From positions 1 to 37,036 of the IMG/VR virus record IMGVR_UViG_3300024320_000845: a stretch of DNA of 37,036 nt. One strand, written 5' to 3'. The notes under the pieces were generated by a model. The model had not been told where the DNA came from. It ran no database searches and was given only the letters and a program-made list of their open reading frames with translations. This document shows, one piece after another, positions 1 through 26,518 of this stretch. Origin of the DNA: a virus. Both the position numbers and the translations under genes were made by a program. The stretch's first letter is position 1. Each line of letters begins with the position of its first letter.

Positions 1-2829
1 CGGGTCTCAATCGAGGATTTTGCCAATAATGTGAATGTTTGGCTCGACAAACAGGCACCGAAGTTTCGATTGAACTTCTTTGTAGATGAAGTCGGGCAGT
101 ATATCGCCGAGAACGTCAAGCTGATGACGAACCTGCAAACGATTGCCGAAAGCCTGAATACAAAATGTAAGGGCCGCGCCTGGGTCATCGTCACGTCACA
201 GCAGGACATGGAAGCCATTATTGGCGATGGAAAAGCGTTCCAGTCGCAGGATTTTTCGAAGATCATGGCGCGCTTCGGTGTGAAAATGCCGCTGAACTCT
301 GCCGATGTTGCTGAGGTTATCCAGCGCCGCCTTCTGTCGAAGACCGACGAGGGCCAGGTACGGCTTGGCAACCTGCACGACCGCGAGGAGAACAACCTCA
401 AGACCCTGTTTGATTTTACGGATGGGTCGATCAAGCTGAAGAACTTCGATGGGCGCGCCCACTTTGTCTCGAGCTACCCATTCCCGCCCTACCAATACAT
501 GCTGTTTCAGATGGCGATCACGTCGCTTTCCCAGCACAACGCCTTTGAAGGGAAGCACAGCTCGGTCGGGGAACGCTCGATGCTGGGCGTGTTCCAAGAG
601 GTCGCCAAGAAGATGGCAGACCAACCCGTGGGCGGTCTTGCCACCTTTGATCTCATGTTCGAGGGTATCCGCATGGCCCTCAAATCTGCTGTACAGCAGT
701 CGATCCAGATTGCCGAGAAGGAAATCCAGGACATCGATCCCTTCGCGGTTCGTGTGCTGAAGGCGCTCTTCCTCGTGAAATACGTCAAGGAGTTTAAGCC
801 CACGGTGCGCAACATCAGCGTGCTGCTGCTCTCCGAGTTCGACACCGATCAGGTCAAGCAGCGGCGCAAGATCGAGGAGGCCCTGTCTTTCCTCGAGCGC
901 AACACGCTTATTCAGCGCAATGGCGAGGTCTATGAATTCCTGACGAACGAGGAGAAGGACGTCGAAGCCGAAATCAAGGCGCTGGATGTCGACCCGTCAG
1001 AGCTTTCGAAGGAAATGGAAACGCTGGCGTTCGACACGATCCTGAGGCATCGCAAGATCAAGCATCTGACCACCGGCAATGAATACAGCTTCAGCCGGAA
1101 GCTCGATGACCACCTCTTGGGCCGGGAATACGAGCTTTCCATCAACGTGATCAGCCCGTTCAACGATGATGTCGCATCACCTGAAGCCGTGCGCATGCGG
1201 AACATGAGCCGAGAAGAACTGGCGGTGGTGCTGCAGCCCGATGTGCGGTTCATCCGCGATCTTACGCTCTTCAAGCAGACGGATAAGTTCATCCGTCAGG
1301 CCCGTGCGGGTTCCCAGCAGCCAGGCCGTGATCGCATCGTGGCTGAGAAGGGCGATCAGAACAGCCGTCGCTATAAGGATCTCGAACTCCGCCTGCGCAA
1401 GCTGATGGCTGAGGCGCGGATGTTCGTGCGGGGCGATGAGCTCGACATTGGTGGCGAAGAGCCCCAGGACCGGATCGTGAAAGGCTTCCAGGGCCTTGTC
1501 GACAAGGTCTATGTTAACCTGCCAATGCTGCGGGGCGTGACCTATGCTGAGGCCGATATCCTGAAGGCAGCAACGCCCGAAAGCGGGCTCTTCGGCAACA
1601 ACGGTGAAGGGCTGACCGAGGCGGAGCAGGACGTTCTGAACTACGTCCAGTCTCAGGCTCGGAATGGCGTGAAGGTCTCGGTGAAATACCTCACCGAACG
1701 CTTTGGCGGCAAACCCTACGGTTGGCCGACGACGGCAATTCTGTGCTTGGCTGCCAGCCTGTCAGGCAAGGGCAAGGTTGAAGCCCGATCCGACGGCACC
1801 GTGCTCGAGCGCGCAGAACTCGCCAAGGCGCTGAACAACAGCCATGCTCTTGCCAATATCCTGCTCACCCCGCAGACCGAGTTTACCTCTGCCCAGATCC
1901 GGAAGGCGAAAGAGCTCTACAAGGAGCTGTTTGATTTGCCATCGGATGGGACTGACGCCCGGACCATCGGTGCGGAATGGCTGGAGAGCACGCGGACGCT
2001 GTCAGAAGATCTGGGTAAGATGCTGGCGCAGAAAGCGCAGTATCCGTTTGTCGTGGCGCTCGAGCCCCTGGCCGCGAAAATTGCCGCGATGGTGGGCAAG
2101 CCAGCCACTTGGTACATCACCGAGCCCGCGGCACAGGAAGATGACCTGCTCGACGCCAAGGAAGAAGTCCTCGACAAAATCCGCAGCTTCATGGGTGGTG
2201 CCCAGCGCGAAATCTATGACGACGCCCGGGATTTCTTGCGGGACCAGGAGGCCAATATTTCCTATGTGGATGCGGCCGCCGGCGAAGCACTGGCCCGTGC
2301 CTTGGCCGACCCTGCTTGCTACAAGGGCACGGCCATCCAGTTCCTGAAATCCGATCTCTATGGGTTGAAAGACCGTGTTGAGCTGACCGTGCTTGAGGAA
2401 CGCAAAGCTGTCATCGCAGCGGTCGAGGATTGCGCGGCCAAGGTCACGCAGACGCCAGAGTTCCAGGCGCTATCTGAAGATGACCAAGCCCACATCAAGC
2501 GCAATATCGATAGCCACAAATTAGGGCTCGACAGCGTGAAGATGATCCCGATCCTGCGCGATCGGGCGAATGGCGCGAGGCTCGATCTTCTGCCGCGCAT
2601 TTTGGCAGAGGTTGAGCGACTGAACCGACCGGTTGTCGATCCAAAACTCGTCCCGCCCGGGCCGCCGCAGCCAGAGCCCCCGCAGACCACTTACGTCAAC
2701 GCCTCTGAAATCAAGGTGGGCTTCGCCAAGCCCTACCTGACCGAAGAGGCTGACGTCGAACAATACGTCCAAGAAATGAAAAAGACCCTTCTGGTGCAGA
2801 TCCGCGCGGGCAAGAAGGTGATTGTCTGA
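1..2829 (+). CDS. brxC: BREX P-loop ATPase BrxC, C-terminal 942 residues (5' end outside the window)
   Basis: BrxC is the large ATPase of BREX phage-defence systems and is needed for both methylation and phage exclusion. The frame is open to base 1 (the GTG at 31 is an internal codon), so the gene starts outside the window. Known BrxC proteins are about 1,200 residues, so roughly 250 residues, including the Walker A loop, are missing here. A Walker B-like run NFFVDEVGQ (acidic D29/E30 of the fragment) is followed by a sensor-like strand RAWVIVTSQQ. The rest is a long, charged, mostly helical body without further motifs I can name. It ends TGATG, sharing bases with the start of the first pglX, which supports translational coupling. 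The call rests on the sequence style plus the unmistakable PglX-PglX-PglZ-BrxL genes that follow. Confidence 0.88.
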   Translation, partial: RVSIEDFANNVNVWLDKQAPKFRLNFFVDEVGQYIAENVKLMTNLQTIAESLNTKCKGRAWVIVTSQQDMEAIIGDGKAFQSQDFSKIMARFGVKMPLNSADVAEVIQRRLLSKTDEGQVRLGNLHDREENNLKTLFDFTDGSIKLKNFDGRAHFVSSYPFPPYQYMLFQMAITSLSQHNAFEGKHSSVGERSMLGVFQEVAKKMADQPVGGLATFDLMFEGIRMALKSAVQQSIQIAEKEIQDIDPFAVRVLKALFLVKYVKEFKPTVRNISVLLLSEFDTDQVKQRRKIEEALSFLERNTLIQRNGEVYEFLTNEEKDVEAEIKALDVDPSELSKEMETLAFDTILRHRKIKHLTTGNEYSFSRKLDDHLLGREYELSINVISPFNDDVASPEAVRMRNMSREELAVVLQPDVRFIRDLTLFKQTDKFIRQARAGSQQPGRDRIVAEKGDQNSRRYKDLELRLRKLMAEARMFVRGDELDIGGEEPQDRIVKGFQGLVDKVYVNLPMLRGVTYAEADILKAATPESGLFGNNGEGLTEAEQDVLNYVQSQARNGVKVSVKYLTERFGGKPYGWPTTAILCLAASLSGKGKVEARSDGTVLERAELAKALNNSHALANILLTPQTEFTSAQIRKAKELYKELFDLPSDGTDARTIGAEWLESTRTLSEDLGKMLAQKAQYPFVVALEPLAAKIAAMVGKPATWYITEPAAQEDDLLDAKEEVLDKIRSFMGGAQREIYDDARDFLRDQEANISYVDAAAGEALARALADPACYKGTAIQFLKSDLYGLKDRVELTVLEERKAVIAAVEDCAAKVTQTPEFQALSEDDQAHIKRNIDSHKLGLDSVKMIPILRDRANGARLDLLPRILAEVERLNRPVVDPKLVPPGPPQPEPPQTTYVNASEIKVGFAKPYLTEEADVEQYVQEMKKTLLVQIRAGKKVIV

Positions 2830-4235
2830 TGGACACGAACGCGCTGAAGAAGTTTGCCCAGTCCGCCCGTAATCTGCTGATCGATCAGGTGCGATCCAAG
2901 CTGGATCTGGTGCTCAACCCTTCATCGCCCGCGCGGCGGGAACATCCGCAGGTGATGAAGGAGCTCGATGCTGCGATCGCGCGGGATGGCAAGGCGCAGG
3001 TTATCGAGCAGGTGGCCTACACCTGGTTCAACCGCTTCACCGCGCTGCGCTTCATGGATGTGAATGGCTACACGGCTGTTGGGGCTGTGTCCCCAGCAGA
3101 AGGGCAGACACGGCCAGAAATCCTTGCCGAGGCGATGGCGGGGAACTTGACCGACGGCGCGCCTAGCAGCATCGCGGCGCTGCTTGATGGCCGCACGCCG
3201 TCCTCTGATCCGCAGGGTGAAGCTTATCGACAGCTCTTGGTGCATGCCTGCAACCAGTGGCACGGGCCTATGCCGTTCCTGTTCGAAGAGCTGGACGATT
3301 ACACCGAACTCCTGATGCCTGAGGATCTTCTGTCGCAATCCTCGATCCTTGTCGAGCTGCGCAAAGTGATGACCGAAGATGCCTGCCGCGAGGTCGAGAT
3401 CATCGGCTGGCTCTACCAGTTCTACATCTCCGAGAAGAAGGATCAGGTCTTCGCGGGCCTCAAGAAGAACCAGAAGATCACGGCCGATAACATCCCCGCC
3501 GCGACGCAGCTGTTCACCCCGCACTGGATCGTCCGCTATTTGGTCGAGAACTCGCTGGGGCGCCTCTGGCTGCTGAACCGACCGGGCAGCCGTCTGGCCG
3601 AGCGGATGGACTATTACATCGCCCCCGAAGAGCCCGAGACGGAGTTCCTGAAGATCACCAAGCCGGAAGAGATCCGCATCTGCGATCCGGCGGCGGGCTC
3701 GGGGCACATGCTGACCTATGCTTTTGACCTGCTCTACGCCATCTACGAGGAAGAGGGATATGACGCGACCGAGATCCCCGCGCTGATCCTGACGCACAAC
3801 CTGACCGGGGTGGAGATTGACGACCGCGCGGGGGCGCTGGCGGCCTTTGCGCTGGCGATGAAAGCGGCGGCCAAGCTGGGGCGGCGGCGGTTCCTGCGGA
3901 TGGGGGCGAAACCCGACATCTGCGTGTTGCAGAACGTGGCCTTTACCGCCGAGGATGTCCGGGACGTGGCCGCCGTGGTGGGCAAGGATCTGTTCACCGA
4001 TGAGCTGCGCGAGACGCTGGGCCAGTTCGAGCAGGCCAAGAACTTCGGCTCGCTGATCGTGCCGAAACTGCGCGATCCGGCAGAGACGCTGCGGGTGGTC
4101 GAGGCGCGGGATTTTGGTGGTGACCTGCTGTTGAATGAGGTGCAGGCGCGCGTCATCGCAGTGCTGCGCATGGCCGAGGCGCTGTCGCCGAAGTATCATG
4201 TGGTGGTGGCCAACCCCCCGTATATGGGCGGCGGC
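2829..4235 (+). repeat. 5' homology block of the pglX duplication (partner 6278-7684)
   Basis: The first about 1,400 bases of pglX copy 1 are repeated in direct orientation at the start of copy 2, with long runs of identical bases around the SAM motif. The match breaks down just after the NPPY codons. The spacing between the copies is 3,449 bases, and the block is long enough for homologous recombination. Confidence 0.9.
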
Positions 4236-6278
4236 GGTATGAACGGTGTTCTTACAAATTGGCTAAAGGACGGATATCCATCGACAAAAAGCGATCTGTT
4301 TTCGGCATTTGTTGAAAGGCTGTTGGGCATAATAAAGCCAGATGGGTTTGCGGGCATAGTCACGCCCTTCACTTGGCTATACATTTCAACATTTAAGAAA
4401 CTGCGGCGTCTAGTTTTAACAAGAAGCCATGTCCAGTCTTTCGTTAAGCCGTCATATACAGCTTTTTACGAGTCAGCGATCGTTCCACTCATGGCATTAG
4501 TCCTTCGTGAGGGTTCTGCGCCCAACTACAAAGGAAAATTTTACGATCTTGGATACTTGGGCACTGGCGCTCAACAACCTGGCCTTTTCTCATCCAAGAT
4601 CGAGCAAAATGACTACGTCCTAAGGAGTGCTTCGCAATTTCTGTCCTTCGAAGGCAGCGAAATGGCATACAACCTACCTACCGGATTGGTCGAGCGCATT
4701 GAGAGCCGAACAAAGTTTGGGGAAATATGTAGCATCTCCGAAGGCTTGAAGACTGGTGAAAATGACCTTTTTATACGCTTCTGGCAAGAAGTCAGTTATG
4801 CAAAGACTGAAAAATTTGGAGCGGGTGAGAAGTGGGTTCCGCATGCAAAAGGTGGTGACTTTCGCCGTTGGTATGGAAACCTAAGCTGGGTGGTAAATTG
4901 GGAGAATTCCGGCTCGGAAATGCGAACGACAGGAAAAGCTGGTTTTCAGGGTCAATCGAACTACGGAAAACAGGGCGCTGTCTGGTCAAAAATCTCCACC
5001 AGCTATTTTAGCGTGCGATACCAACCTGATGGGTGCATATTCGACTCTGCATGTCCTGGTCTCTTTGTTAACAAAACTTTAACGCCACCACAGTCCGTCG
5101 CGGTTCTCTGCTCGAAAGTCGGCCAATCGTTCATCAAATCCCTTAACCCAACGATGAATTTTCAAGTTGGAAACATAGCAGGGATGCCACTTTCGGATGA
5201 TCTTTCATGGCGCGACGAGGTCGAAAAGATCGCCACTAAGGCGATTAGCCTGACCAAATCTGACTGGGACGCCTACGAAACCTCCTGGGATTTTGCCACG
5301 CTCCCGCTGCTTTCGCCCGATCATCGCGGCGAGACGCTGGAGGACAGCTACGCTACCCTCCGCGCCCATTGGCAGTCCAAGACGGACGAGATGGAGGCCT
5401 TGGAGGAAGAGAACAACCGCATCTTCATCGACGCCTATGGTCTGAAAGACGAGCTGACCCCCGAGGTGCCGCTGAACGAGATCACCCTCACCTGCAACCC
5501 CGCCTATCGCTATGGCATCAAGAACGACGTGGAGGCCAACGAAACCCGCCTTCGCGCCGACACCATGGCCGAGTTCCTTTCCTACGCCGTGGGCTGCATG
5601 TTCGGCCGCTACAGCCTCAACACCGCCGGCCTTGTCCTCGCCAATCAGGGCGAGACGCTGGCCGACTACCTCGTCCGCATCTCCGAGCCGAGTTTCATGC
5701 CCGACGAAGACAACGTCATCCCCGTGCTCGACGCCGACTGGTTCGCCGACGACATCACCGAGCGTTTCCGCCTGTTCCTGCGCACCACTTTTGGCGAGGC
5801 ACATTTCCGCGAGAACCTGCGCTATATCGAGGACGCTCTTGGCAAGGACATCCGCAAATACTTCACCAAGGATTTCTACGCCGACCACGTGAAGCGCTAC
5901 AAGAAGCGCCCGATCTACTGGATGTTCGCCAGCCCCAAGGGCACATTCAACGCGCTGATCTACATGCACCGCTATCGGGCCGACACGGTGTCGGTCATCC
6001 TCAACGACTACCTCCGCGAGTTCATCAGTAAGCTTGAGGGGGAGCGCGGGCGTCTGGAAAAGCTATCGGATGACCCCAGTGCCAGCCAGGGCCAGCGTAC
6101 CAAGGCGCTGAAAGACATGGCCATCATCGCCAAGCAGATCGACGAGCTGAACGAGTGGGAGCGCGATGTCGTCTTCCCACTGGCACAGGCCAAGATCGAG
6201 ATCGACCTCGATGACGGGGTGAAAGCGAACTATCCGAAGTTCGGCACAGCGTTGAAGAAAATCACGGGGCTCAGCTGA
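2829..6278 (+). CDS. pglX: BREX adenine-specific DNA methyltransferase PglX, copy 1
   Basis: PglX marks host DNA by N6-adenine methylation at a non-palindromic site and so separates self from phage DNA. The 1,149-residue protein has the SAM-binding motif DPAAGSGH (residues 286-293) and the catalytic NPPY motif (462-465). These are flanked by an N-terminal helical part and followed by a central target-recognition part (about 470-810). The C-terminal part from about residue 812 starts with DWDAYETSWDF. The ATG overlaps the brxC stop (TGATG), and the gene ends TGATG with the second copy. The central part is clearly AT-richer than its flanks: by hand count line 4261-4320 is about 45% GC and line 3841-3900 about 75% GC. 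The N- and C-terminal parts are close to identical to copy 2, while the centre differs. No frameshift is seen, so both copies look functional. Confidence 0.95.
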   Translation: MDTNALKKFAQSARNLLIDQVRSKLDLVLNPSSPARREHPQVMKELDAAIARDGKAQVIEQVAYTWFNRFTALRFMDVNGYTAVGAVSPAEGQTRPEILAEAMAGNLTDGAPSSIAALLDGRTPSSDPQGEAYRQLLVHACNQWHGPMPFLFEELDDYTELLMPEDLLSQSSILVELRKVMTEDACREVEIIGWLYQFYISEKKDQVFAGLKKNQKITADNIPAATQLFTPHWIVRYLVENSLGRLWLLNRPGSRLAERMDYYIAPEEPETEFLKITKPEEIRICDPAAGSGHMLTYAFDLLYAIYEEEGYDATEIPALILTHNLTGVEIDDRAGALAAFALAMKAAAKLGRRRFLRMGAKPDICVLQNVAFTAEDVRDVAAVVGKDLFTDELRETLGQFEQAKNFGSLIVPKLRDPAETLRVVEARDFGGDLLLNEVQARVIAVLRMAEALSPKYHVVVANPPYMGGGGMNGVLTNWLKDGYPSTKSDLFSAFVERLLGIIKPDGFAGIVTPFTWLYISTFKKLRRLVLTRSHVQSFVKPSYTAFYESAIVPLMALVLREGSAPNYKGKFYDLGYLGTGAQQPGLFSSKIEQNDYVLRSASQFLSFEGSEMAYNLPTGLVERIESRTKFGEICSISEGLKTGENDLFIRFWQEVSYAKTEKFGAGEKWVPHAKGGDFRRWYGNLSWVVNWENSGSEMRTTGKAGFQGQSNYGKQGAVWSKISTSYFSVRYQPDGCIFDSACPGLFVNKTLTPPQSVAVLCSKVGQSFIKSLNPTMNFQVGNIAGMPLSDDLSWRDEVEKIATKAISLTKSDWDAYETSWDFATLPLLSPDHRGETLEDSYATLRAHWQSKTDEMEALEEENNRIFIDAYGLKDELTPEVPLNEITLTCNPAYRYGIKNDVEANETRLRADTMAEFLSYAVGCMFGRYSLNTAGLVLANQGETLADYLVRISEPSFMPDEDNVIPVLDADWFADDITERFRLFLRTTFGEAHFRENLRYIEDALGKDIRKYFTKDFYADHVKRYKKRPIYWMFASPKGTFNALIYMHRYRADTVSVILNDYLREFISKLEGERGRLEKLSDDPSASQGQRTKALKDMAIIAKQIDELNEWERDVVFPLAQAKIEIDLDDGVKANYPKFGTALKKITGLS
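5262..6278 (+). repeat. 3' homology block of the pglX duplication (partner about 8733-9754)
   Basis: The last about 1,000 bases of the two pglX copies match again from the DWDAYETSW codons to the stop. Together with the 5' block this frames each variable centre, so a crossover in either block could delete one copy or exchange the recognition part. Confidence 0.88.
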
Positions 6279-9200
6279 TGGACACGAACGCGCTGAAGAA
6301 GTTTGCCCAATCCGCCCGCAATCTGCTGATCGATCAGGTGCGCTCGAAGCTAGATCTGGTGGTCGATCTTGCCTCGCCCGCGCGGCGGGAGCATCCGCAG
6401 GCCATGAAAGAGCTCGACGCTGCGATCGCGCGGGATGGCAAGGCACAGGTGATCGAGCAGGTTGCCTACACCTGGTTCAACCGCTTCACCGCGCTGCGCT
6501 TCATGGATGCTAATGGCTACACGACGGTCGGGGTTGTTTCGCCGGCTGAGGGGCAGACACGGCCCGAGTTATTGGCTGAAGCGATGGCGGGCAACTTGCC
6601 TGAGGGCGCGCCGGGTAGCATCGCGGCGTTGCTGGATGGCCGCACGCCGTCTTCTGATCCGCAGGGCGAAGCTTATCGACAGCTCTTGGTGCACGCCTGC
6701 AACCAGTGGCACGGCCCCATGCCGTTCCTGTTCGAGGAAATCGACGACTACACCGAGCTGCTGATGCCCGAGGATCTGCTGTCACAGTCCTCCATCCTGT
6801 CAGAGACGCGCAAGGTGATGACAGAGGACGCCTGTCAGGATGTCGAGATCATCGGCTGGCTCTACCAGTTCTACATCTCAGAGAAGAAGGATCAGGTCTT
6901 CGCGGGCCTCAAGAAGAACCAGAAGATCACGGCCGAGAACATCCCCGCCGCGACGCAGCTGTTCACCCCACATTGGATCGTCCGCTACCTGGTCGAAAAC
7001 TCGCTGGGGAGCCTCTGGCTGCTGAACCGACCGGGCAGCCGTCTGGCCGAGCGGATGGACTATTACATCGCCCCCGAAGAGCCCGAGACTGAGTTCCTGA
7101 AGATCACCAAGCCGGAAGAGATCAAACTTTGCGATCCGGCTGCGGGCTCGGGGCACATGCTGACCTATGCCTTTGACCTGCTCTACGCCATCTACGAGGA
7201 AGAGGGGTATGACGCGACCGAGATCCCCGCGCTGATCCTGACGCACAACCTGACCGGGGTGGAGATTGACGACCGCGCGGGCGCGCTGGCCGCCTTTGCG
7301 CTGGCGATGAAGGCGGCGGCGCGGCTGGGGCGGCGGCGGTTCCTGCGGATGGGGGCGAAACCCGACATCTGCGTGTTGCAGAACGTGAGCTTTACGCCTG
7401 CCGAGATGCAGGACGTGGCCGCCGTGGTGGGCAAGGATCTGTTCACCGATGAGCTGCGCGAGACCTTGGGGCAATTCGAACAGGCCAAGAACTTCGGCTC
7501 GCTGATCGTGCCGAAACTGCGCGATCCGGCAGAGACACTGCGGGTGGTGGAGGCGCGGGATTTTGGCGGCGACCTGCTGCTGACGGACGTTAAGGCGCGC
7601 GTTTTGACCGTTCTACGCATGGCAGAGGCGCTGTCGCCGAAGTATCATGTGGTGGTGGCTAACCCGCCGTATATGGGGCGAGGTGGCATGAACCCCACTC
7701 TTATGACGTGGACCGAAGCCAATTACTCTGATTCAAAGTCTGATCTCTTCGCAATGTTTATGGTTCGCTCGCTCATGCTGAATGTCCAAGGCGGGTTCAT
7801 GGCCATGATCAACATGCAGTCTTGGATGTTTCTCTCGTCCTTTGAGAAAATGCGTGGATGGTTGCTTGCATCGTCTCATCTTACTTCGATGGCACACCTT
7901 GGAGAGAGAGCATTCGATACAATTGGCGGGTCAGTCGTGTCGACAACTGCTTTTGTCTTCGAAAAGTCTCGGAAAGCTTCCAGTGCTGGGTACTTTGTTC
8001 GCTTGGTAGATGGGCGGAACGAAAATGAAAAACTGGAGGCTTTAAAAAGAGCCGCCTCAGGAGCGGATGACGAAGTTTACAAAGCAAGCACCACCGAGTT
8101 TGAACGGATCCCGGGCTACCCTATCGCATACTGGATATCTCAGACTGTCGCAAATGCATTCCTTGAGGATAAGCTCTCTTCAGTTGGGAGCACGCGCCGA
8201 GGACTTCAAACTGGAAACAAGGACCTTTTCATCAGGCAGTGGTCAGAGGTTAGCTCTGAGCAAACAGACTTTGATAGTCGTAACCGCGTCGAGGCACTTC
8301 AACGTTCCGAAAAATGGTTTCGATTCAATAATGGTGGCGACTTTCGGAAGTGGGCAGGTGGTATTGATCTAGTAGTGAACTGGCAATCGGATGGACGCGA
8401 CATTAAGGCTAGCGGTAAGGCCATTATCCCCAGCGAAGACCTGTATTTCAAAGAGGCCGTTTGCTGGGGGCGAATTTCAAGCGGTCCAGAGGCATATCGC
8501 CTCCATGAGGGCGGACTGCTTCCGGGAGACCTCTCGCCATGCTATTTCTCCGATGCCCCCTACTTTTCATTGGCTTACTTCAACTCGCCTGTCGCGCGCA
8601 CGTTCAAAAACGTTGTAAATCCTACGATCACCAATACAGTTGGAGATCTCGCCAAGATTCCGGCTCCCACGCGCGCGACCCCACAGAACGCAAGTGTTGA
8701 GCGCGTCGTCCGGCAGCTTGTGGCCTCGCATACAACCGACTGGGACGCCTACGAAACCTCCTGGGATTTCACCACGCTCCCGCTGCTCTCGCCCGATCAT
8801 CGCGGCGAGACGCTGGCGGATAGCTACGCCACGCTCCGCGCCCAGTGGCAGTCCATGACGGACGAGATGAAAGCCTTGGAGGAAGAGAACAACCGCATCT
8901 TCATCGACGCTTATGGTCTGCAAGACGAACTGACGCCCGAGGTGCCGATCGAGGAGATCACCCTCACCTGCAACCCCGCCTATCGTTATGGCGTGAAGGG
9001 CTCCGAGGAAGCCAATGAGGCCCGCCTGCGCGCCGATACCATGGCCGAGTTCCTGTCCTACGCCGTGGGCTGCATGTTCGGGCGCTACAGCCTCGACGCG
9101 CCGGGCCTGATCCTCGCCAACCAGGGCGAGACGTTGCAGGACTATCTCGCCCGCATCCCCGAGCCGAGCTTCATGCCGGACGAAGACAACGTCATCCCCG

Positions 9201-9754
9201 TGCTTGACGCCGACTGGTTCGCCGACGACATCACCGACCGCTTCCGCCTGTTCCTGCGCACCACCTTCGGCGAGGCGCATTTCCAAGAGAACCTGCGCTA
9301 CATTGAAGACGCGCTTGGCAAGGACATCCGCAAGTATTTCACCAAGGATTTCTACGCCGACCACGTGAAGCGGTATAAGAAGCGCCCGATCTACTGGATG
9401 TTCTCCTCACCCAAGGGGACGTTCAACGCGTTGATCTACATGCACCGCTACCGCGGCGACACGGTGTCGGTACTGCTCAACGACTACCTGCGCGAGTTCA
9501 TAAGCAAGCTGGAAGGCGAACGCGGGCGGCTGGAAAAGCTGTCAGACGACCCGAGCGCCAGCCAGGGCCAGCGCACCAAGGCGCTGAAAGACATGGCCGT
9601 GATCGCAAAACAGATCGACGAGTTGAACGAATGGGAGCGCGATGTCGTCTTCCCGCTGGCGCAAGCCAAAATCGAGATAGACCTCGATGATGGTGTGAAG
9701 GCGAACTATCCCAAGTTCGGAGCCGCGCTGAAAAAGATTGTTGGGGTGAGTTGA
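6278..9754 (+). CDS. pglX: BREX adenine-specific DNA methyltransferase PglX, copy 2
   Basis: This is a second full PglX of 1,158 residues, directly behind copy 1 and coupled to it by TGATG. The SAM motif DPAAGSGH (286-293) and NPPY (462-465) lie at exactly the same residues as in copy 1. The proteins match closely up to NPPYMG and again from about residue 819 (DWDAYETSWDF) to the end. Between these, the recognition part is different, sharing only scaffold pieces such as GDFRKW/GDFRRW, a VVNW strand and an L(K/Q)TG.(N/K)DLFIR run. This pattern suggests that the two enzymes methylate different sites, or that one is a spare specificity module. The central part is again AT-richer. The gene ends TGATG, coupling it to pglZ. 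An alternative is that only one copy is used at a time. Confidence 0.95.
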   Translation: MDTNALKKFAQSARNLLIDQVRSKLDLVVDLASPARREHPQAMKELDAAIARDGKAQVIEQVAYTWFNRFTALRFMDANGYTTVGVVSPAEGQTRPELLAEAMAGNLPEGAPGSIAALLDGRTPSSDPQGEAYRQLLVHACNQWHGPMPFLFEEIDDYTELLMPEDLLSQSSILSETRKVMTEDACQDVEIIGWLYQFYISEKKDQVFAGLKKNQKITAENIPAATQLFTPHWIVRYLVENSLGSLWLLNRPGSRLAERMDYYIAPEEPETEFLKITKPEEIKLCDPAAGSGHMLTYAFDLLYAIYEEEGYDATEIPALILTHNLTGVEIDDRAGALAAFALAMKAAARLGRRRFLRMGAKPDICVLQNVSFTPAEMQDVAAVVGKDLFTDELRETLGQFEQAKNFGSLIVPKLRDPAETLRVVEARDFGGDLLLTDVKARVLTVLRMAEALSPKYHVVVANPPYMGRGGMNPTLMTWTEANYSDSKSDLFAMFMVRSLMLNVQGGFMAMINMQSWMFLSSFEKMRGWLLASSHLTSMAHLGERAFDTIGGSVVSTTAFVFEKSRKASSAGYFVRLVDGRNENEKLEALKRAASGADDEVYKASTTEFERIPGYPIAYWISQTVANAFLEDKLSSVGSTRRGLQTGNKDLFIRQWSEVSSEQTDFDSRNRVEALQRSEKWFRFNNGGDFRKWAGGIDLVVNWQSDGRDIKASGKAIIPSEDLYFKEAVCWGRISSGPEAYRLHEGGLLPGDLSPCYFSDAPYFSLAYFNSPVARTFKNVVNPTITNTVGDLAKIPAPTRATPQNASVERVVRQLVASHTTDWDAYETSWDFTTLPLLSPDHRGETLADSYATLRAQWQSMTDEMKALEEENNRIFIDAYGLQDELTPEVPIEEITLTCNPAYRYGVKGSEEANEARLRADTMAEFLSYAVGCMFGRYSLDAPGLILANQGETLQDYLARIPEPSFMPDEDNVIPVLDADWFADDITDRFRLFLRTTFGEAHFQENLRYIEDALGKDIRKYFTKDFYADHVKRYKKRPIYWMFSSPKGTFNALIYMHRYRGDTVSVLLNDYLREFISKLEGERGRLEKLSDDPSASQGQRTKALKDMAVIAKQIDELNEWERDVVFPLAQAKIEIDLDDGVKANYPKFGAALKKIVGVS

Positions 9755-12255
9755 TGTCGGATCGGATCACCACCAGCCTGGAACGCCTTTTTGACGAGCA
9801 TCGTATCGTCTTTTGGTATGACGCAGCACGCGACATGCGGGGAGAGTTCGAGGCAGTCGATTTGGCTGGTGTGACAAAGGTGGAAGTCGCCAACAACCAG
9901 TTTGGGCTGAAACATCGGATGCTGCGGCAGGAGCCGACGGCAAAGTTTCTGGTGTTCCATGATGGGCCTGAGCCTGAGAATGCCGCGAACTGGCTTTTGG
10001 ACGTGCAGTTGGCAACGGCAGTTTTCAAGGCGGATCAAGCCGGCATCTGGCTGGGTGAGCTGGGCCTGCCGCCACAGTTCGAAAGCGTCGTGCGCGATCA
10101 CCTGGAGTTTTATCGCTCTAAGGTGCGCGTGGCGGAGCTTAAACGGCTATTGCATGCGGCAGATACGCAGTCCCAAGTGCGGCTGCGCATGCTCGCCGTC
10201 TGTGCCGGTGCTGAGGGTGGGCTTGATACAGTTGTCGAGGCACTCCTTGGCGAATTAGCCGATGGCAGTGAGGATGCGATGCGGCTCATTGAGCGATCCG
10301 GCCTGACCGAGGTGTTTTGGAAGCAGGTTGGAAACGCCTATGGCTATCAGCCGGACCAGCCTGATCTGGAGGATTTTGCGATCGCGCTCTTTCAGTCGGC
10401 GTATCAGCGGGCGTTGGGCGAAGATGGCAAGCTGAGCGCTGAGGCTCTTCTGGTTTTCCGGCGCTGGAAGAACAATCGCCACTGGGAAGTGGCGTTCGAG
10501 ACGCTTGCTGCTCGCTATCAGGCCTTGCTGAAGATTCCAGAAGATTTGTCCAAGCGCGACTTCCGCGCAGTCATGGCCATCGATCATTTCGAGGAAATCG
10601 ACCGCCATATCATCCGCCAACTGGTGCACGCGATGTCGACGCAGACGGTCAGCGCGTCTGAGGTCCTGAAATGGGTGCGCGAACGCCGGCAAAGCCATTG
10701 GTATGGCACTTATGAGGACATCTATCAGGCGATCGGATTTGCCACAGAATTCCAGCAGGCGCTGGCAGAGGCCAACTTGGGGATGACGAGCCCTGCCGAA
10801 GGGGTGAAGCGCTATGTGAGCAGCTGGTACAAGCTCGACCAGCTCTATCGCAAATTCATCTACCATATGCAGCGCAGCGGCCATGCCTCGCTGCTTTCGG
10901 AACTCTACGAGGCGGTTGAGAACCGGTATACTAATAGCTTCCTCTTGAAGCTGAATGATGCCTGGCAGGATCAGGTTGCCGGACTGACCGACTGGGCAAT
11001 CCCCGGCTACGCAAGCCAAAGCGCCTTTTATATCGAACAAGCCGCAGAGTTTCGCCGTCGCGATCAGAAGGTCGTGGTCATCGTTTCAGATGCCTTACGT
11101 TTCGAGGTGGCCGAGGAATGCCTACGCCGCATCCGGGCATTGAACCGATTTGATGCGGAGCTGAAGCCCATGATCAGCGCGCTACCCAGCTATACCCAGC
11201 TCGGGATGGCGGCACTTTTGCCAAACCGTGACCTGTCTTTCGCGCCTGATGGCGGCGGATCGGTACTTTCGGGAGGCGAAAGCACACAAGGCCTTGCCGC
11301 GCGCGAAAAGATCCTGGCAACGGGACGTGCAGGCGATCGCGCCAAGGCTCTATCCGCACGGGATGTTCTCGATATGCGGGTCGATGAAGGCAAAGAGCTC
11401 TTCCGCGACAATGACGTGGTCTACATTTATCACAACCTGATCGATGCGATTGGCGACAAGCTGCAGACCGAGGATCAGCTGCCCAAGGCTGCCGAAGACG
11501 CGATCGAAGAGCTAACCAAGCTCGTTCGAAAGCTGACCTCGGCGAATTTCTCGAACATCCTGATCACGGCAGATCATGGCTTCCTTTTTCAGCACCGAGT
11601 GTTGGATGAGAGCGACTTTGCTGTCGCCGATCCCAAGGGCGAAGAAATCCTGCTTCGTAATCGCCGCTTCGTCATCGGTCGTGGTCTCGAAGAAACCGCG
11701 GGCATGAAGAAGTTCAGCTCGGCGAACCTGGGCCTGGCGGGCGACCTCGATGTCCTGATCCCAAACTCGATAAACCGCCTACGCGTTAAAGGGGCGGGCA
11801 GCCGATTTGTGCACGGTGGCGCCTCACTGCAGGAAATTGTTATTCCCGTCCTCCGTGTCGGGAAACAGCGCGAAGCGGATGTGAACCAGGTTGAGGTGCA
11901 GATCATCGTATCTGGCCGCAGCCAGATCACTTCTGGGCAAACGGCTGTCATCTTCTACCAAGCGCAACCGGTGTACGAGAAAATGCAGGCGCGTGAGCTG
12001 GTCGCGGGGATCTATGCTGCCGACGACACGCTGATTTCAGACGAGCATGTTCTGCAGTTTGATTTTACCTCGGACAACGCCCGTGAACGCGAAATGCCTC
12101 GGAAGTTCCTGCTATCGCGTGAGGCGGACAAATTCAACAACCAAGACGTATTCCTTAAGTTGCGTCAGCCATACGGCAAAACGAGCCGCTTTGAGGACTA
12201 CACAAGCCACCGCTTCCAGTTGAAACGTGGCATAACAACAGATTTTGACTTTTAA
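9754..12255 (+). CDS. pglZ: BREX phosphatase-fold protein PglZ
   Basis: PglZ is the alkaline-phosphatase-superfamily protein of BREX, and it works with PglX, BrxB and BrxC. The PglZ domain lies in the second half of this 833-residue protein. It has a metal-binding-type strand VVVIVSDALRFEV with D446 and a second motif ITADHGFLFQ with D607/H608, both in the order expected for the superfamily. The N-terminal half is helical and lacks motifs I recognise. The ATG at 9754 overlaps the pglX-2 stop (TGATG); a TTG three bases upstream is in frame but less likely. It is followed after 11 bases by the BrxL-like gene, which has its own Shine-Dalgarno. Length and position agree with type 1 BREX. Confidence 0.93.
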   Translation: MSDRITTSLERLFDEHRIVFWYDAARDMRGEFEAVDLAGVTKVEVANNQFGLKHRMLRQEPTAKFLVFHDGPEPENAANWLLDVQLATAVFKADQAGIWLGELGLPPQFESVVRDHLEFYRSKVRVAELKRLLHAADTQSQVRLRMLAVCAGAEGGLDTVVEALLGELADGSEDAMRLIERSGLTEVFWKQVGNAYGYQPDQPDLEDFAIALFQSAYQRALGEDGKLSAEALLVFRRWKNNRHWEVAFETLAARYQALLKIPEDLSKRDFRAVMAIDHFEEIDRHIIRQLVHAMSTQTVSASEVLKWVRERRQSHWYGTYEDIYQAIGFATEFQQALAEANLGMTSPAEGVKRYVSSWYKLDQLYRKFIYHMQRSGHASLLSELYEAVENRYTNSFLLKLNDAWQDQVAGLTDWAIPGYASQSAFYIEQAAEFRRRDQKVVVIVSDALRFEVAEECLRRIRALNRFDAELKPMISALPSYTQLGMAALLPNRDLSFAPDGGGSVLSGGESTQGLAAREKILATGRAGDRAKALSARDVLDMRVDEGKELFRDNDVVYIYHNLIDAIGDKLQTEDQLPKAAEDAIEELTKLVRKLTSANFSNILITADHGFLFQHRVLDESDFAVADPKGEEILLRNRRFVIGRGLEETAGMKKFSSANLGLAGDLDVLIPNSINRLRVKGAGSRFVHGGASLQEIVIPVLRVGKQREADVNQVEVQIIVSGRSQITSGQTAVIFYQAQPVYEKMQARELVAGIYAADDTLISDEHVLQFDFTSDNAREREMPRKFLLSREADKFNNQDVFLKLRQPYGKTSRFEDYTSHRFQLKRGITTDFDF

Positions 12256-12266: not shown

Positions 12267-14390
12267 ATGAGCGATCTCGACGCTAGGATCAATGAACATT
12301 TCGCGGGCTTTGTCGTGCGCAAGGACCTAGTGAAGGCGGTCAAGGGCAACGCGATCGTTCCGACCTATGTGCTCGAGTATCTCTTGGGTCAGTATTGCGC
12401 CACCGACGACGAGGCGTCGATCGCGACTGGAATCGAGACCGTCAAAGAAATCCTGCGTAAACACTACGTCCACCGCAGCGAAGCGGGGCTTACTCAGTCG
12501 ACGATCAAGGAAAAGGGGCGCTACAAGGTCATCGACCAGATCAGCGTGTCGTTGAACGAGAAGACGGATAGCTATGAAGCCACCTTCGACAATCTCGGCA
12601 TCAAGAAGGTTGCGGTCGACAGCGGCACGATCAAGGCGCACCCGAAGCTACTTGTGACGGGCGTCTGGTGTATTGCAGACGTGCAATATGAGTATTCCGA
12701 AGATGCGCGCATTTCGCCTTGGATCCTTGAAACCATCAAACCCATCCAGATCGCCAAGGTTGACTATGAGGGCTACCGGGAGGCGCGGGGCAGTTTCAAC
12801 ACTGACGATTGGATCGACCTGCTGATGCAGAGCATCGGGTTCAACCCGGAAGCTTTTGGGCGTCGGGCGAAGCTCTTGCAGTTGATGCGCCTGATCCCCT
12901 TCGTGGAACGGAACTACAACATCATCGAGCTTGGGCCCAAGGGCACGGGCAAGTCGCACATCTATTCGGAGTTTTCGCCGCACGGTCAGCTGATCTCGGG
13001 TGGTGAAGTGACGATCCCTAAACTCTTTGTGAACAACTCGAACGGGCGCATTGGCCTTGTCGGCTACTGGGATGTCGTAGCCTTTGATGAATTTGCCGGC
13101 CGCGAAAAGACAGCAAACAAAGCGCTCGTCGACATCATGAAAAACTACATGGCCAACAAGACCTTCTCTCGGGGTGTAAATCCCATGGGAGCTGAGGCCA
13201 GCTTCGCGTTTGTGGGCAACACAGACCACAACGTGCCCTTCATGCTCAAGAACAGCGACCTCTTTGAAGCCCTACCGCCGCAATTCCATGACTCGGCCTT
13301 CATTGATCGCCTGCATGCCTATTTGCCAGGCTGGGAAATTGATGTGATCCGGGGTGAGATGTTCACAAGTGGGTATGGTTTTATTGTAGATTATCTCGCT
13401 GAAATGTTGCGCCATCTGCGCCAGGAAGATTTCTCCAACCGGCCGGACCAGCATTTCAAAATCAGCGAGAAGATTTCAACGCGGGATCGGGATGCGATCT
13501 ACAAGACGATGTCGGGCCTGCTAAAGCTGATCTTCCCGAATGGCGGTGAGACGGCGGAAGATGTCGAAGAGCTGATGCGCCTGGCAATGGAAAGCCGCAA
13601 ACGGGTCAAAGACCAGTTGGCGCGGATCGACAGTACATATCCTGAGGTCGATTTCCACTACCTTGGCACAGATGGGACCAAGCGCCGTGTGACTACGGTC
13701 GAGGAAGAAGAATACCCGCAGTTCTACCACCTCAAGCCCGCGCTGGATCCCAAGGAGCAGGAACAGTCAGAGATGTCAGGTGGTGGGGCCACATCTGTCG
13801 CTGAAGAAGGGGCCTCGAAGTCTCGCCCCGTTTCGGAGGGGGCGCGCCCTGACAAAGCAGAGGCGAAGCCCGTTCTCGAAGAAGGCCACCATGTCTTCAC
13901 AGAGGATCGCAAGGGGATCAGCTACGATCGGCTCTTTGGCCCTTACATCGAGGGCGCGTCAAAGATCATTGTGACGGACCCTTACGTTCGGTTCTTCTAC
14001 CAGATCCGCAATATGATGGAGTTTGTTGAAATGGTCATTCGGCGAAAGTCGCCTGAGGACCAAGTCAGCGTTCATCTCGTGACTGGGCCAGATGACGGTA
14101 ATGTAGGCAAGCAACGCGAATTGCTCGACTCGATCGTAGACGCATGTGTTGGCTCGGGTGTTGAATTTACTTGGGCCTTTGATGGCTCAGGAACAGCGCA
14201 TGCGCGCGATATCATTACGGATACTGGGTGGAAAATCGTTCTCGATAGAGGACTTGATATCTTTCAAGCACCTTTGAAAACTGGTGGGTTTTCGCTCAGT
14301 GACCGATTGCAGGAGCAGCGGATTATCAAGGGTTTTTATGTTACTTTCGTTAAGAACGAAACGGGTGACGTCTCGAAACACTCACAGTAA
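12267..14390 (+). CDS. brxL: BrxL-like AAA+ protein with a C-terminal MIT_C (PLD-like) domain instead of a Lon domain
   Basis: BrxL is the last core gene of type 1 BREX. Known members are AAA+ proteins with a C-terminal Lon-protease-like domain and act in phage exclusion, not in methylation. This 707-residue protein has Walker A GPKGTGKS (223-230), Walker B VAFDEF (D274/E275) and a helical region to about 490. A low-complexity charged linker (about 490-545) follows. The last about 155 residues do not look like Lon: a run YDRLFGPYIEGA, then TDPYVRFFYQIRN, and HARDI (H645) followed by GW and DRGLDIFQ match my memory of the MIT_C domain of eukaryotic MITD1. The start is set by AAGGAG seven bases upstream of the ATG. 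The functional effect of the domain exchange is unknown. Confidence 0.85.
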   Translation: MSDLDARINEHFAGFVVRKDLVKAVKGNAIVPTYVLEYLLGQYCATDDEASIATGIETVKEILRKHYVHRSEAGLTQSTIKEKGRYKVIDQISVSLNEKTDSYEATFDNLGIKKVAVDSGTIKAHPKLLVTGVWCIADVQYEYSEDARISPWILETIKPIQIAKVDYEGYREARGSFNTDDWIDLLMQSIGFNPEAFGRRAKLLQLMRLIPFVERNYNIIELGPKGTGKSHIYSEFSPHGQLISGGEVTIPKLFVNNSNGRIGLVGYWDVVAFDEFAGREKTANKALVDIMKNYMANKTFSRGVNPMGAEASFAFVGNTDHNVPFMLKNSDLFEALPPQFHDSAFIDRLHAYLPGWEIDVIRGEMFTSGYGFIVDYLAEMLRHLRQEDFSNRPDQHFKISEKISTRDRDAIYKTMSGLLKLIFPNGGETAEDVEELMRLAMESRKRVKDQLARIDSTYPEVDFHYLGTDGTKRRVTTVEEEEYPQFYHLKPALDPKEQEQSEMSGGGATSVAEEGASKSRPVSEGARPDKAEAKPVLEEGHHVFTEDRKGISYDRLFGPYIEGASKIIVTDPYVRFFYQIRNMMEFVEMVIRRKSPEDQVSVHLVTGPDDGNVGKQRELLDSIVDACVGSGVEFTWAFDGSGTAHARDIITDTGWKIVLDRGLDIFQAPLKTGGFSLSDRLQEQRIIKGFYVTFVKNETGDVSKHSQ

Positions 14391-14438
14391 AATTAAGCCT
14401 AAGGGCTGCTTTAAGTGCATTACCGTAAGAGAGAATTG

Positions 14439-17400
14439 ATGGAAGAGATACAACGGTCCCAAAATTTATCGGCACTCCTCGATGATGCGCGTCGTCGCCT
14501 CGTTGAAACAGGAACTCGTAACCGATTGGTGCATGTGAATAGATCAGCTAAGCGGGCCAATGCGCTTGATGTTGTAGAAGAGCGCAGTGCTGACATCTAC
14601 AATCTGCTAAAATCTAATGGCAAGCGCATGCGCTTTCTGGCGCGTGACGAAGAAGAGCCCGATGAAGAGGTTGAAGTCGACGGTCCAATCTTAGCCTTAG
14701 ATGAAGACGACGGCTCAGATCGTGAGGCTAGGTACCTGGATCTCTTTCTTGAAACGCGTCTGGGCCAAGAGGCCTTACAGCGCCGTCTGTTGCGTTTGTT
14801 CACAGATGCTAGGACTTCCGAAGAGGAGCAGGGTGTTAACATCCTTTATCTGGCAATGGGATTTTTACGCTGGTTCGAAAGTGACAATTCCGAAACCCTA
14901 AGGGAGTCACCGTTGATCTTACTGCCGGTAGAGTTGGTGCGAGATGAGCGTCGGGCAACGTTCAACTTACGGGCACGTGATACAGAAATTGTAACCAACT
15001 TGCCGCTGCAAGAGCGATTGCGGTCAGATTTTGGGCTCGAATTGCCGGAGATTTCTGAGGATGAAACGTTTTCCCCTGAAATCTATTTTGACGAGGTTGC
15101 AGCGCGCATCGAAGGTCGAAACCGTTGGACGATTGATCGTGATGGTATGCAGCTTGGATTCTTCTCGTTCTCTAAGCTCTTGATGATGCGAGACCTTGAG
15201 CCAGAACAATGGCCAGAAGGCGCATTTGAGGATCACCCAGTTCTCGGTGGACTTCTTGGGGGCGGGTTCGAACGGTCTGAACCGCTTTTTGGTCCTCAGG
15301 AGCCGCTTGACCCTCGGCTTGCTCCGTCTGATTTGCTGCATGTCGTACCAGCGGACGCGTCACAAACTCGCGTTATCGAGGAAGTTCGTGCGGGACGAAA
15401 TCTCGTTGTTCAAGGACCGCCAGGAACAGGCAAGTCGCAGACAATTGCGAACATCATCGCGGGCGCTGCCCATGACGGCAAGACCGTGCTTTTTGTCGCC
15501 GAAAAGATGGCAGCGCTTTCGGTCGTGCATGATCGATTGCAGAAAATTGGCTTGGGCGACCTGTGCCTTGAGATTCATTCACGCGCTGCAAACAAGAAAG
15601 TATTTCTAGAGGAACTCGCTCGAACGTTAAATGCTGGGCGAGCAATTCCTGAACTGCCTGAGGCGCCAGATGCTTTGCGTGAGGCCAGAGATAAGCTGAA
15701 TAGTGTGAGCGCTCAATTGCATGAGCCCGTCTCTGGGCATGGATTTACACCGTATAGGGCGATGGCAGAAATCGCACGTTTTGTAGGAATGGAGATGCAG
15801 CCACCAAGGCTTGCACGTGGCGGGTTGGCCGATCTTGACGATGCAACCCGAAAAAATCTTGCAGAGCGTGTATCAACCTATGTGGACCTACTTAAAACAG
15901 CTGGTCCTCGGTTGAACCACCCATTTGCGGGTGTTGGCTCAACGAGATTGCAGCCAACCGACCTTCAACGGCTGGAGCCTGATCTGCGTCAAGTGTCCGA
16001 GGCAATAAAGAAGTTGCAGGCGACGGCCTCGCATGTGGCAGTGTTGGCGCATCGACCGGAACCCTCCACACTTTTGGAATGCATCAGCTTGCGAAACCTT
16101 CTGCGCGCGGCGGTGCAAAGGCCAGCAGATGCCCAAGAGGCGAGCGCGGCGCTGCTGTCGCAAGTGCATGATGCTCGGCTTCAAGAAGCTCTTGGCGCGG
16201 GCCGCGCCTGGATCGAAGCGCGGGAAGCGGCAAGCACGCGTTTTGAGGAGCCGGCGTTTGGGATACCAGCCGATACGTTACGAGGCAAATTGGCACCTGG
16301 CGTGAGTTCGGTCTGGGCGAGGCTCTTCGGCACCTATCGTGGTGCCAGCAAAGAAATCGCTACGGTTTTAAGTGGTCCCTTACCCAGTGCACCTGCAGAT
16401 CGTCTGCAGCTTGTTGATGAATTACTTAGCGTTCAGCAACGCCGCAAAGAGTTGTCCGATGAGGAAAGCTGGCTGAAAGAGGTCTTGGGGAGCGCGTGGC
16501 GTGGCGAGCGAACCCCTTTCACAGCGCTCTTAGCACAGGCTGAATGGCTTGGCCAAATGGCTACGATCGTCCCGTCCGCTGACGCTGAAAGTCTTGAGCG
16601 CATTAGCGCTGCAGCAGACCGTGAAGCTGAATTGAGCGCAGCTTTGGATGGCTTGGGCTTGGTTTTGGACCCACTTGTTGCAAGGCTTGAGATCAAGTGG
16701 CCGGAAGGTGACGATATTTCCCTCAAAATGCTGGTGCAGCGGACAGATGCCATGTGCGTTGCTCTTGATCGTTTCGGCGAATGGGCTCGTCTCACACATC
16801 TTTCTGCTGAACTGCAGAGCAGTGGCCTTGGGTCCTTAGTTGCCATGTTGGACGCAGGCGAGCTTTTGCCTGAAAAGGCAGTTGACGAATTTCTTTATGC
16901 GACCGCTGAAGCGCGATGGGAAACAGCGCGCAATCTATTTCCAGGCCTAGACGAGCTGGCTTATCTTGATCGACACGCGCTAGTTGAGGCCTTTCGCGGT
17001 CTTGAGGTGGAACGTCTCGCCGAGACCAGACGACTTGTTCGTGCTAAACATTTAGCGCAACTGCCCACAGGCGCTGCAGGCCAGATGGGCTTCTTGCGCG
17101 GAGAGATGGCCAAGAAACGTCGGCATCGGCCTATCCGTCAAATGATGAAAACTGCCGGGCAGATGGTTCAAAGGATTAAACCGGTTCTTCTCATGAGTCC
17201 TATTTCTATCGCGCAGTATTTGCCTACGGGGGCCGCAGAATTCGATCTTTTGGTTATCGACGAGGCCAGTCAGGTGCGGCCAGAAGAGGCGCTTGGCGCG
17301 ATTGCGCGTTGCAACCAAATTGTTGTGGTCGGCGATCAGAAGCAGCTTCCTCCTACCAGCTTTTTTGACAGGGTCGCTGGCCCTGATGAAGCGGATTTAG

Positions 17401-19708: not shown

Positions 19709-20932
19709 TCAATCTAGTTGCTCTACCCCAACCACCACCATCCCGGTCAAATGCGACACTGCCGCCATCATGATCCCCATATTAAACGCAAACTCGTTGG
19801 CGCAGCTTTGCTTGAAGAAGTCGCCCTCGAGGAACATGCAGGATCCTTTGCAGAGTTGGACGACGGGGCACGACATGCACTCGTCTCGGAAGGCAAAATG
19901 CGTCGCGGTAGTGAGTGCGATCGCATCAATGTCATCAACATGGCCGATCTTGTGCTCACCCTTCGCCCCTGTGTTCTGGCAGGTCATGACGTTGCCGCGC
20001 AGATCAACGGCGATCGTGTCTTCTCGATCCATACCGCACTTTTGGCCTAGCGCCTCAATGGGTCTTTGCCGCTGGATCGAGGCGTAAAATTCGTCGATCC
20101 GCTCGCCCAAGCCAAAAGCATTCGGGTCCTCAACCAGGGCTTCAAAGATTGACCGGGTAAGTCTGTTTAGCTCAGTTGTTTCAAACCGCCCTGTGCCAAT
20201 CGCGGTCGCAGCATCATAGACGTTCACAACGCCCTCGAGGCCGACGTGGATACCCGATCCCACCCGATCCGCAAACCAGGCCTTCAGCGCCTGTAGATCA
20301 TGATGCTCCCGTGTCAGCACCGCGTTAAAGCCTACCTGGTCTGCGCGCTCGGCCAACAGGGCTTCAATCCAAGCGCGCGTTTCGGGATCATCGAACGGAT
20401 CGGGCCCGCGCAGATGCTGACCGGGCCCGTCATGGGAGATTGTTATTGCGATGTCATGCGCGGCAATGAAGTCCAGCTTTTCGCGGTTGAGAAGAGAACC
20501 ATTGGTAATGATCGAGAAGCAGGCACCGGGAAAGCGCGCGGCCAGAGCCGGCACTAAGCGTTTAATCTTGGCCCAATACAGAAACGGCTCGCCGCCCCAG
20601 ATTTCAATTTGCTCTGGGGCTTGCGTGATCCAGCCGTCAAGCTGGGTTAAGAAGTGTTCCACATCGGCAAGCTTTGAGACCGTCGCATCCTCAATCTGGA
20701 AGGCCTGACTGCAATAGCTGCAGCTATAGTTGCACGAGAGCCCGAGCTGGATTTTCAAAACACGCGGTGCGCGGGATTTGCCCAGGGGCTGGTCTTTTGC
20801 CACACGCGGGACAGACGCGAACTCTCCGGGATCGACAGGCAGGGGCAGCCCTTCGCATTCTGAAGTGTGGGTGTTGTAGCGCAGAGTTTGCTGGGCACCG
20901 TCACGGGCCTCTAGGGTCAATTCAAACCACAT
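19709..20932 (-). CDS. Radical SAM/SPASM enzyme at the end of the tail-fibre cluster
   Basis: A 407-residue radical SAM protein. The CxxxCxxC cluster motif is C67, C71, C74 and the GGEP motif is at 113-116. The C-terminal end has SPASM-type cysteines: C299 and C318 (pattern C-x13-G-x4-C), then C352, C355, C361, C365 and C377 (C-x2-C-x5-C-x3-C-x11-C). The last spacing is shorter than the usual x17. SPASM enzymes carry two extra Fe-S clusters and mostly modify peptides or proteins, for example sactipeptides and sulfatase maturation. The ATG overlaps the stop of the 2OG oxygenase gene (TGATG), so the two are coupled. The first 55 residues are not radical SAM and show no clear peptide-binding RRE fold by eye. 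I infer that the substrate is the Cys-rich peptide (21567-21863) or a nearby fibre; this is untested. Confidence 0.88.
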   Translation of the reverse strand: MWFELTLEARDGAQQTLRYNTHTSECEGLPLPVDPGEFASVPRVAKDQPLGKSRAPRVLKIQLGLSCNYSCSYCSQAFQIEDATVSKLADVEHFLTQLDGWITQAPEQIEIWGGEPFLYWAKIKRLVPALAARFPGACFSIITNGSLLNREKLDFIAAHDIAITISHDGPGQHLRGPDPFDDPETRAWIEALLAERADQVGFNAVLTREHHDLQALKAWFADRVGSGIHVGLEGVVNVYDAATAIGTGRFETTELNRLTRSIFEALVEDPNAFGLGERIDEFYASIQRQRPIEALGQKCGMDREDTIAVDLRGNVMTCQNTGAKGEHKIGHVDDIDAIALTTATHFAFRDECMSCPVVQLCKGSCMFLEGDFFKQSCANEFAFNMGIMMAAVSHLTGMVVVGVEQLD

Positions 20933-21564: not shown

Positions 21565-21566
21565 CC

Positions 21567-24559: not shown

Positions 24560-24561
24560 GA

Positions 24562-26325: not shown

Positions 26326-26518
26326 GGCGGATCTCCTGTGATGTTTGCAGTGCCCGGATGCGCGCATCGGCGCGGCGAATGGCGAGGTCTGCCTCTGCGG
26401 CGTGGCGGCCCTGGCGGAAGGCAATCCAGAGGGCAGCAAAGAGGGCAAAGACAATGGCGCCGTAAAAGGCAGCCCGACGGCTCAGGCCACCAAGCAATGT
26501 GCCTAAGACATGGATCAT
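26261..26518 (-). CDS. Rz-like inner-membrane spanin
   Basis: An 85-residue protein with one N-terminal membrane segment (about 15-34, AAFYGAIVFALFAALWIAF). A highly charged helical periplasmic part follows (AEADLAIRRADARIRALQ and onward), as in i-spanins, ending DLERRVDRWMRD. It starts with a four-base overlap with the endolysin gene and partly overlaps the Rz1-like gene. Its partner is the lipoprotein encoded at 26122-26325. Confidence 0.78.
   Translation of the reverse strand: MIHVLGTLLGGLSRRAAFYGAIVFALFAALWIAFRQGRHAAEADLAIRRADARIRALQTSQEIRHEVHNADRADLERRVDRWMRD

Follow-up and report, generated by a model that had tools for sequence, protein, structure and literature searches.

A type-1 BREX BrxL protein with an MITD1-like MIT_C domain in place of its Lon-like tail

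Introduction

In BrxL proteins of the Lon type, a hexameric or heptameric ring binds DNA in an ATP-dependent manner and an inactive Lon-like C-terminal domain mainly dimerizes the rings (PMC10164562). A second type was reported in Nucleic Acids Research in January 2026 (PMC12839542). That paper, which credits an earlier Menshen paper (NAR 2025, gkaf357), describes 1030 of 2913 type-1 BREX taxa in which an HKD-endoDNase takes the place of the LonP domain in BrxL. There the HKD lysine is an arginine, the HKD-endoDNase is proposed to degrade invading DNA, and HKD fusions are stated to be specific to type-1 BREX.

The BrxL protein described here was compared with both types. The Acinetobacter BrxL of the Lon type (PDB codes 8emc and 8emh) was aligned with its residues 3–481 end to end (E about 1e-142), whereas the inactive Lon-like fold at the Acinetobacter C-terminus was absent. 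The BrxL-HKD variants share with it the ATPase core, the swap site, a PLD-type domain with the HRD motif, and a type-1 operon with PglZ; MIT_C and MITD1 are not named in the available passages on them. The replacement of Lon by MIT_C is an ordinary architecture of type-1 BrxL and is already published. The swap had thus not gone unnoticed: PMC12839542 assigns an HKD-endoDNase to roughly one in three type-1 BrxL proteins. A literature search for BrxL and MITD1 in one paper returned none.

Genomic context of the BREX operon

The window, the whole 37,036-nt stretch of IMG/VR record IMGVR_UViG_3300024320_000845, contained a BREX operon on the plus strand from the first bases of the record, with the phage tail genes on the minus strand to its right. 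By profile matches within the window, the gene order was brxC (partial)–pglX–pglX–pglZ–brxL (Table 1). brxA and brxB were not seen; their positions would fall beyond the record start. The BREX-1 PglX model (NF033452) and the PglZ type A model (TIGR02687) were both matched well above cut-off, which placed the operon in type 1, and brxL adjoined the pglZ, pglX, and brxC genes.

Table 1. Features of the BREX operon and of its BrxL protein in the window
Feature	Coordinates	Strand	Evidence or remark
brxC, 5' end missing at record start	31..2829	+	BrxC model positions 243–1172 matched
pglX, first copy	2829..6278	+	NCBIfam, PADLOC matches
pglX, second copy, N6-adenine methyltransferase	6278..9754	+	NCBIfam, PADLOC matches
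pglZ type A	9751..12255	+	NCBIfam, PADLOC matches
brxL, 707 aa	12267..14390	+	Last core BREX gene in operon; ORF, Pfam, NCBIfam, PADLOC
BrxL_N (PF20442), residues 10–141	12294..12689	+	Pfam E 1.9e-48
AAA+ ATPase BrxL_ATPase (PF13337), residues 152–463	12720..13655	+	Pfam E 1.7e-128
Linker, low-complexity, disorder-prone, about residues 482–545	13710..13901	+	Composition and length, 140 distinct proteins
MIT_C / PLD-fold domain (PF16565), residues 550–696	13914..14354	+	Pfam, PDB search, fold model
HARDIITD = HxRx4D (H645, R647, D652), HKD-like with K replaced by R	14199..14222	+	Sequence; conservation

The tandem PglX proteins were 73% identical overall. Their first ~470 and last ~320 residues were nearly identical, while the middle (about residues 480–830), which we take to be the target-recognition part, had strongly diverged. 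A diverged middle between near-identical ends suggests dual site specificity of the pair.

Directly 3' of brxL, a plus-strand gene (14415–19112) encoded a 1565-aa protein with DUF4011, SF1-type helicase domains, an MTES_1575 nuclease, and DUF3320. This product, which is related to Hhe, was matched by PADLOC PDC-S37 at 1771 bits and by NCBIfam ProA at 1324 bits, below the ProA cut-off of 1500. The tail module (19709–35488, minus strand) read toward the BREX operon and comprised a tape measure (33047–35488), distal tail and fibre genes, a tail-tip J-like protein (28926–31472), and a collagen-repeat and peptidase S74 protein (23501–24559), followed by 2OG-oxygenase-like and radical SAM genes. A HigB-like toxin gene (35505–35813, plus strand) lay on the strand opposite to the tail genes. 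No tRNA was found in the window, and none of the phage and plasmid records searched matched its tail half at high identity, so that the BREX operon may be either part of the phage or host DNA adjoining a prophage.

Domain organization of BrxL

The brxL reading frame started with ATG and was preceded by AAGGAG. Three libraries (Pfam, NCBIfam, and PADLOC) agreed on the assignment to BrxL, and the protein was composed of BrxL_N followed by an AAA+ core, a linker, and a C-terminal domain, the last three as the initial annotation had described. The ATPase domain contained a Walker A motif (GPKGTGKS at residue 223) and a Walker B motif (DE at 274–275). The BrxL model TIGR02688 covered residues 8–456 (E 3e-182). 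The PADLOC model PDLC02508 was matched over its full length (positions 1–696 of 698, 1170 bits); this is a detection model, which says nothing on the C-terminal domain.

The C-terminal domain was identified as MIT_C by a whole-domain Pfam match (E 1.4e-38; 132.5 bits against a cut-off of 25; profile positions 1–142 of 142). A Lon-type C-terminus was ruled out by Pfam, NCBIfam, and the PDB sequence search, as the alignment to the Lon-bearing model TIGR02653 stopped at residue 481 with a score below its cut-off, and the Lon-bearing structures 8emc and 8emh matched up to residue 481 only by phmmer. In the same phmmer search, human MITD1 (PDB codes 4a5z and 2ymb) matched residues 545–671 with an E-value of 1e-14, which improved to 1e-36 with a profile made from 11 bacterial domains.

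The model of the domain was of high quality (pLDDT 93, pTM 0.89) and was superposed on human MITD1 by Foldseek with a TM score of 0.87 and an r.m.s.d. of 1.5 Å. The second tier of Foldseek matches after MITD1 consisted of PLD-superfamily enzymes, namely Zucchini, PLD2, phosphatidylserine synthase, and PLD3; these matches, including the nucleases Zucchini and PLD3, were weak (E about 0.003–0.02). In the full-length AlphaFold model the AAA+ core was poor (mean pLDDT 64) and residues 489–535 had pLDDT values below 50. Because of the poor AAA+ core, this model was left out of domain placement.

The protein was thus confirmed as a type-1 BREX BrxL whose Lon-like tail is replaced by an MIT_C domain. 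The swap and the MITD1-type fold named in the initial annotation were both borne out: the match to MIT_C/PLD folds was strong and no Lon domain came out. The motifs that it had listed were all present (YDRLFGPYIEGA; HARDI, residues 645–649; GW, 654–655; RGLDIFQ, 661–667). Taken as a whole, the earlier interpretation was partly supported.

Conservation of the HxRx4D motif

The spacing of the HxRx4D motif is that of the PLD active site, HxKx4D. The histidine and aspartate are kept and the lysine is replaced by arginine, so that the domain is not a canonical HKD enzyme. When 124 distinct bacterial MIT_C domains from several phyla were compared, the histidine was present in all 124, the arginine in 123, and the aspartate in 119. 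The arginine was replaced only in a Tenacibaculum BrxL (L017:11998-14004), where cysteine stands in the motif HDCFIATD and the aspartate is kept. The aspartate was replaced by Asn in L141, L226, and L227, by Glu in L210, and by Ser in L224, which lies in a broken BREX locus. Outside this motif, the arginine of DPYxR was found in 123 of 124 domains, and the glutamine of the DPYxR motif and the Arg, Gly, and Asp of RGLD in every one. Human MITD1 keeps all of these conserved residues except the motif aspartate, which is Asn. Near-invariant polar residues besides the triad, in the numbering of the window's BrxL, were Asp571, Tyr573, Arg575, Gln579, Asn582, Arg661, and Asp664. The near-absolute conservation of His, Arg, and Asp in the 124 domains argues for a working pocket.

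Distribution of the two BrxL tails

The MIT_C domain recurred in more than 120 distinct sequences, and its presence in the window is therefore not due to chance. Among 39 sampled BrxL proteins without MIT_C, 37 had a Lon-like tail and two ended after the ATPase. In 140 distinct proteins, the linker from the ATPase region (equivalent of residue 480) to MIT_C was 41–104 residues long (median 59), richest in Glu, Ala, and Pro, and disorder-prone, whereas the Lon-like part of other BrxL proteins spans roughly 190–205 residues. The two tails are therefore alternatives, because the linker is too short for a Lon-like part and the BrxL proteins without MIT_C are Lon-type or truncated. Since MIT_C was the only tail in the samples that was neither Lon-like nor truncated, the published HKD class is almost certainly the MIT_C class.

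In Pseudomonadota, the phylum of L018, MIT_C was found in seven of 17 sampled genomes with BrxL over the cut-off (six of 16 without the seed genome). It was rare in the phylum of L093, a record titled Clostridiales, where 41 genomes had BrxL and a strong MIT_C match occurred in two, including the seed, plus one fragment. A search of annotated phage records for the domain found none. Weak PF16565 matches (E about 1e-3 to 1e-5) in most of L112–L138, except L116 and L117, were set aside; the two that were inspected (L113 and L122) were chance matches to an ABC-transporter ATPase sequence, THD..EAL...DRIAVLDKGHI.

MIT_C was present in L192, L210, and L223, in which the ATPase search did not flag a BrxL, and on short frames outside BrxL in L030 and L085. 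In a plasmid of Hymenobacter sp. BRD67 (L224:5409-7450), brxL was annotated in several pieces, and beside it MIT_C, its motif degenerate, was annotated as a separate gene. Judged by the short frames or the fragmented neighbouring brxL, these last three loci (L030, L085, and L224) look like interrupted brxL genes.

Two real carriers of MIT_C outside BrxL were found. The plasmid pTs485 of Candidatus Thiodictyon syntrophicum encodes a 947-aa protein with a dynamin-like GTPase and a C-terminal MIT_C of motif HDRYVVCD (L225:4619-7462). In a Paenarthrobacter plasmid (L226:6422-7471), IF2_N is joined to an MIT_C of motif HGRTITAN.

In the tree of BrxL cores, the MIT_C-bearing proteins did not form one clade, and L140 and L215 were placed among short, type-4-like BrxL proteins (100%). 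A single MIT_C clade including L140 and L215 was rejected by the AU test (p-AU 9e-5), whereas a single origin without these two was not (p 0.26). The tree was a quick one with long branches; with the care that this calls for, MIT_C appears to have been added to BrxL in no fewer than two separate lineages. The setting of L140 (L190:80-17681) comprised a Schlafen/AlbA-ATPase protein, an SspC/BrxC-like protein, a divergent PglZ, BrxL with MIT_C, and an Avs3a-like gene; no PglX was seen there. The L190/L140 locus may be read as type 4 from its ATPase clade. Together with L215 it would be an apparent exception to the restriction of HKD fusions to type 1 that is stated in PMC12839542.

Relationship to human MITD1

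The MIT_C domain of human MITD1 was 34% identical to the domain of the window and 45% identical to BrxL domains of the HDREIR type (L116 and L016), and the highest identity reached 50% over 121 columns (L209). Both the human protein and the domain of the window have a PLD-fold MIT_C with DPYxR, Gln, Asn, His, Arg, GW, and RGLD. MITD1 differs by an N-terminal MIT domain, which is missing from the BrxL of the window (Pfam), by the absence of an ATPase, by Asn for the motif aspartate, and by its work with ESCRT-III.

In the domain tree, MITD1 fell within a fully supported set (100/99) together with twelve HDREIR-type domains. As the human sequence was the only eukaryotic one and had a long branch, the tree does not establish the direction of transfer. 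We tentatively propose, while regarding it as somewhat doubtful, that the PLD-like domain of this animal ESCRT-III partner was derived from the C-terminal domain of HDREIR-type BrxL and captured by eukaryotes with nearly all of its active-site-like residues, the bacterial module being an HRD phosphodiesterase mounted on several chassis (two BrxL lineages and a dynamin). A literature search for MITD1 and horizontal gene transfer found no paper linking the two.

Putative function of the MIT_C domain

On balance, the BrxL of the window is likely to be a tethered PLD-type phosphodiesterase, acting as a nuclease effector on a DNA-loading AAA+ ring, and its substrate would probably be DNA. Its N-terminal and AAA+ domains would form an ATP-dependent ring around double-stranded DNA, as is known for BrxL of the Lon type. 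The active site of PLD enzymes is built from two halves, supplied in tandem or by a dimer, and the BrxL of the window has one PLD-type motif per chain. From the general behaviour of PLD enzymes, we infer that the domains pair up on their flexible tethers of about 60 residues. The paired domains would form H-R-D sites that attack phosphodiester bonds in the ring-bound DNA, which would make this BrxL a nuclease effector. The tether would give the PLD domain more freedom both to contact DNA and to pair, and MIT_C may also stand in for the ring-to-ring contacts of the Lon-like domain.

A nuclease is favoured by the conserved HxRx4D motif together with the weakly matching PLD and nuclease folds that come next after MITD1, by the occurrence of MIT_C in two BrxL lineages, which would be expected if the module contributes an activity, and by the same reading reached independently in PMC12839542. 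It is weakened by arginine at the position of the canonical lysine in all domains but one, which has cysteine, and by the exceptions to the triad in L017, L141, L226, L227, L210, and L224. No reported activity of an HRD-type MIT_C was found in the literature.

The arginine would also suit a PLD fold that has lost catalysis but still binds a ligand, either nucleic acid or a phosphorylated compound, and serves only in assembly or sensing, like the inactive, mainly ring-dimerizing Lon-like domain that it replaces (PMC10164562). MITD1 has lost the motif aspartate, and binding without catalysis could likewise conserve the pocket. However, His, Arg, and Asp each occur in more than 95% of the 124 domains, across several phyla, which is more than a structural role predicts, and we consider a dead fold unlikely.

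It is rather improbable that the domain, by binding lipids in the manner of MITD1, anchors the BrxL ring at the inner membrane at the site of phage DNA entry. The PLD-like fold of human MITD1 binds membranes, and this binding is needed for abscission (PMC6015221); PI(4,5)P2 is listed for MITD1 (PMC9776629). The identity of 34–50% between the MITD1 and BrxL domains points the same way, and the dynamin-like GTPase with a C-terminal MIT_C keeps a membrane role alive. Both a membrane-binding MITD1, with the same fold, His, and Arg and with Asn for Asp, and the dynamin fusion weaken the case for a nuclease. However, simple tethering would not require an almost invariant HxRx4D motif, which catalysis fits at least as well, and the gene partners are DNA-modifying and DNA-binding BREX proteins. 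To our knowledge, PI(4,5)P2 is generally missing from bacteria. The net charge of the MIT_C domains was negative (median -3) and does not discriminate between membrane and DNA binding, as the MITD1 domain is negative too. The suggestion in the initial annotation that BrxL could contact lipids, for which homology to human MITD1 was the one basis, was not sustained.

The PLD superfamily spans lipid, DNA, and RNA substrates, and the second tier of Foldseek matches mixes lipid enzymes with nucleases, but a phosphodiesterase whose substrate is RNA, a nucleotide signal, or the headgroup of a lipid and not phage DNA is very improbable, given that the AAA+ ring protein which carries the domain binds DNA and belongs to a DNA-methylation-based defence system.

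Conclusions

Beyond the literature found, the analysis adds the grouping of MITD1 with one BrxL subclade, MIT_C on type-4-like BrxL, and the MIT_C-dynamin plasmid gene. Should the HRD domain prove to be an active nuclease, roughly one in three type-1 BrxL proteins, by the count in PMC12839542, would contain an effector of their own that cuts DNA, in addition to PglZ, and this would bear on the way in which BREX blocks the replication of phages. Of these findings, the kinship with MITD1 most deserves attention: it would give a cofactor of human ESCRT-III a possible origin in bacterial defence and a conserved pocket as a candidate site of catalysis.
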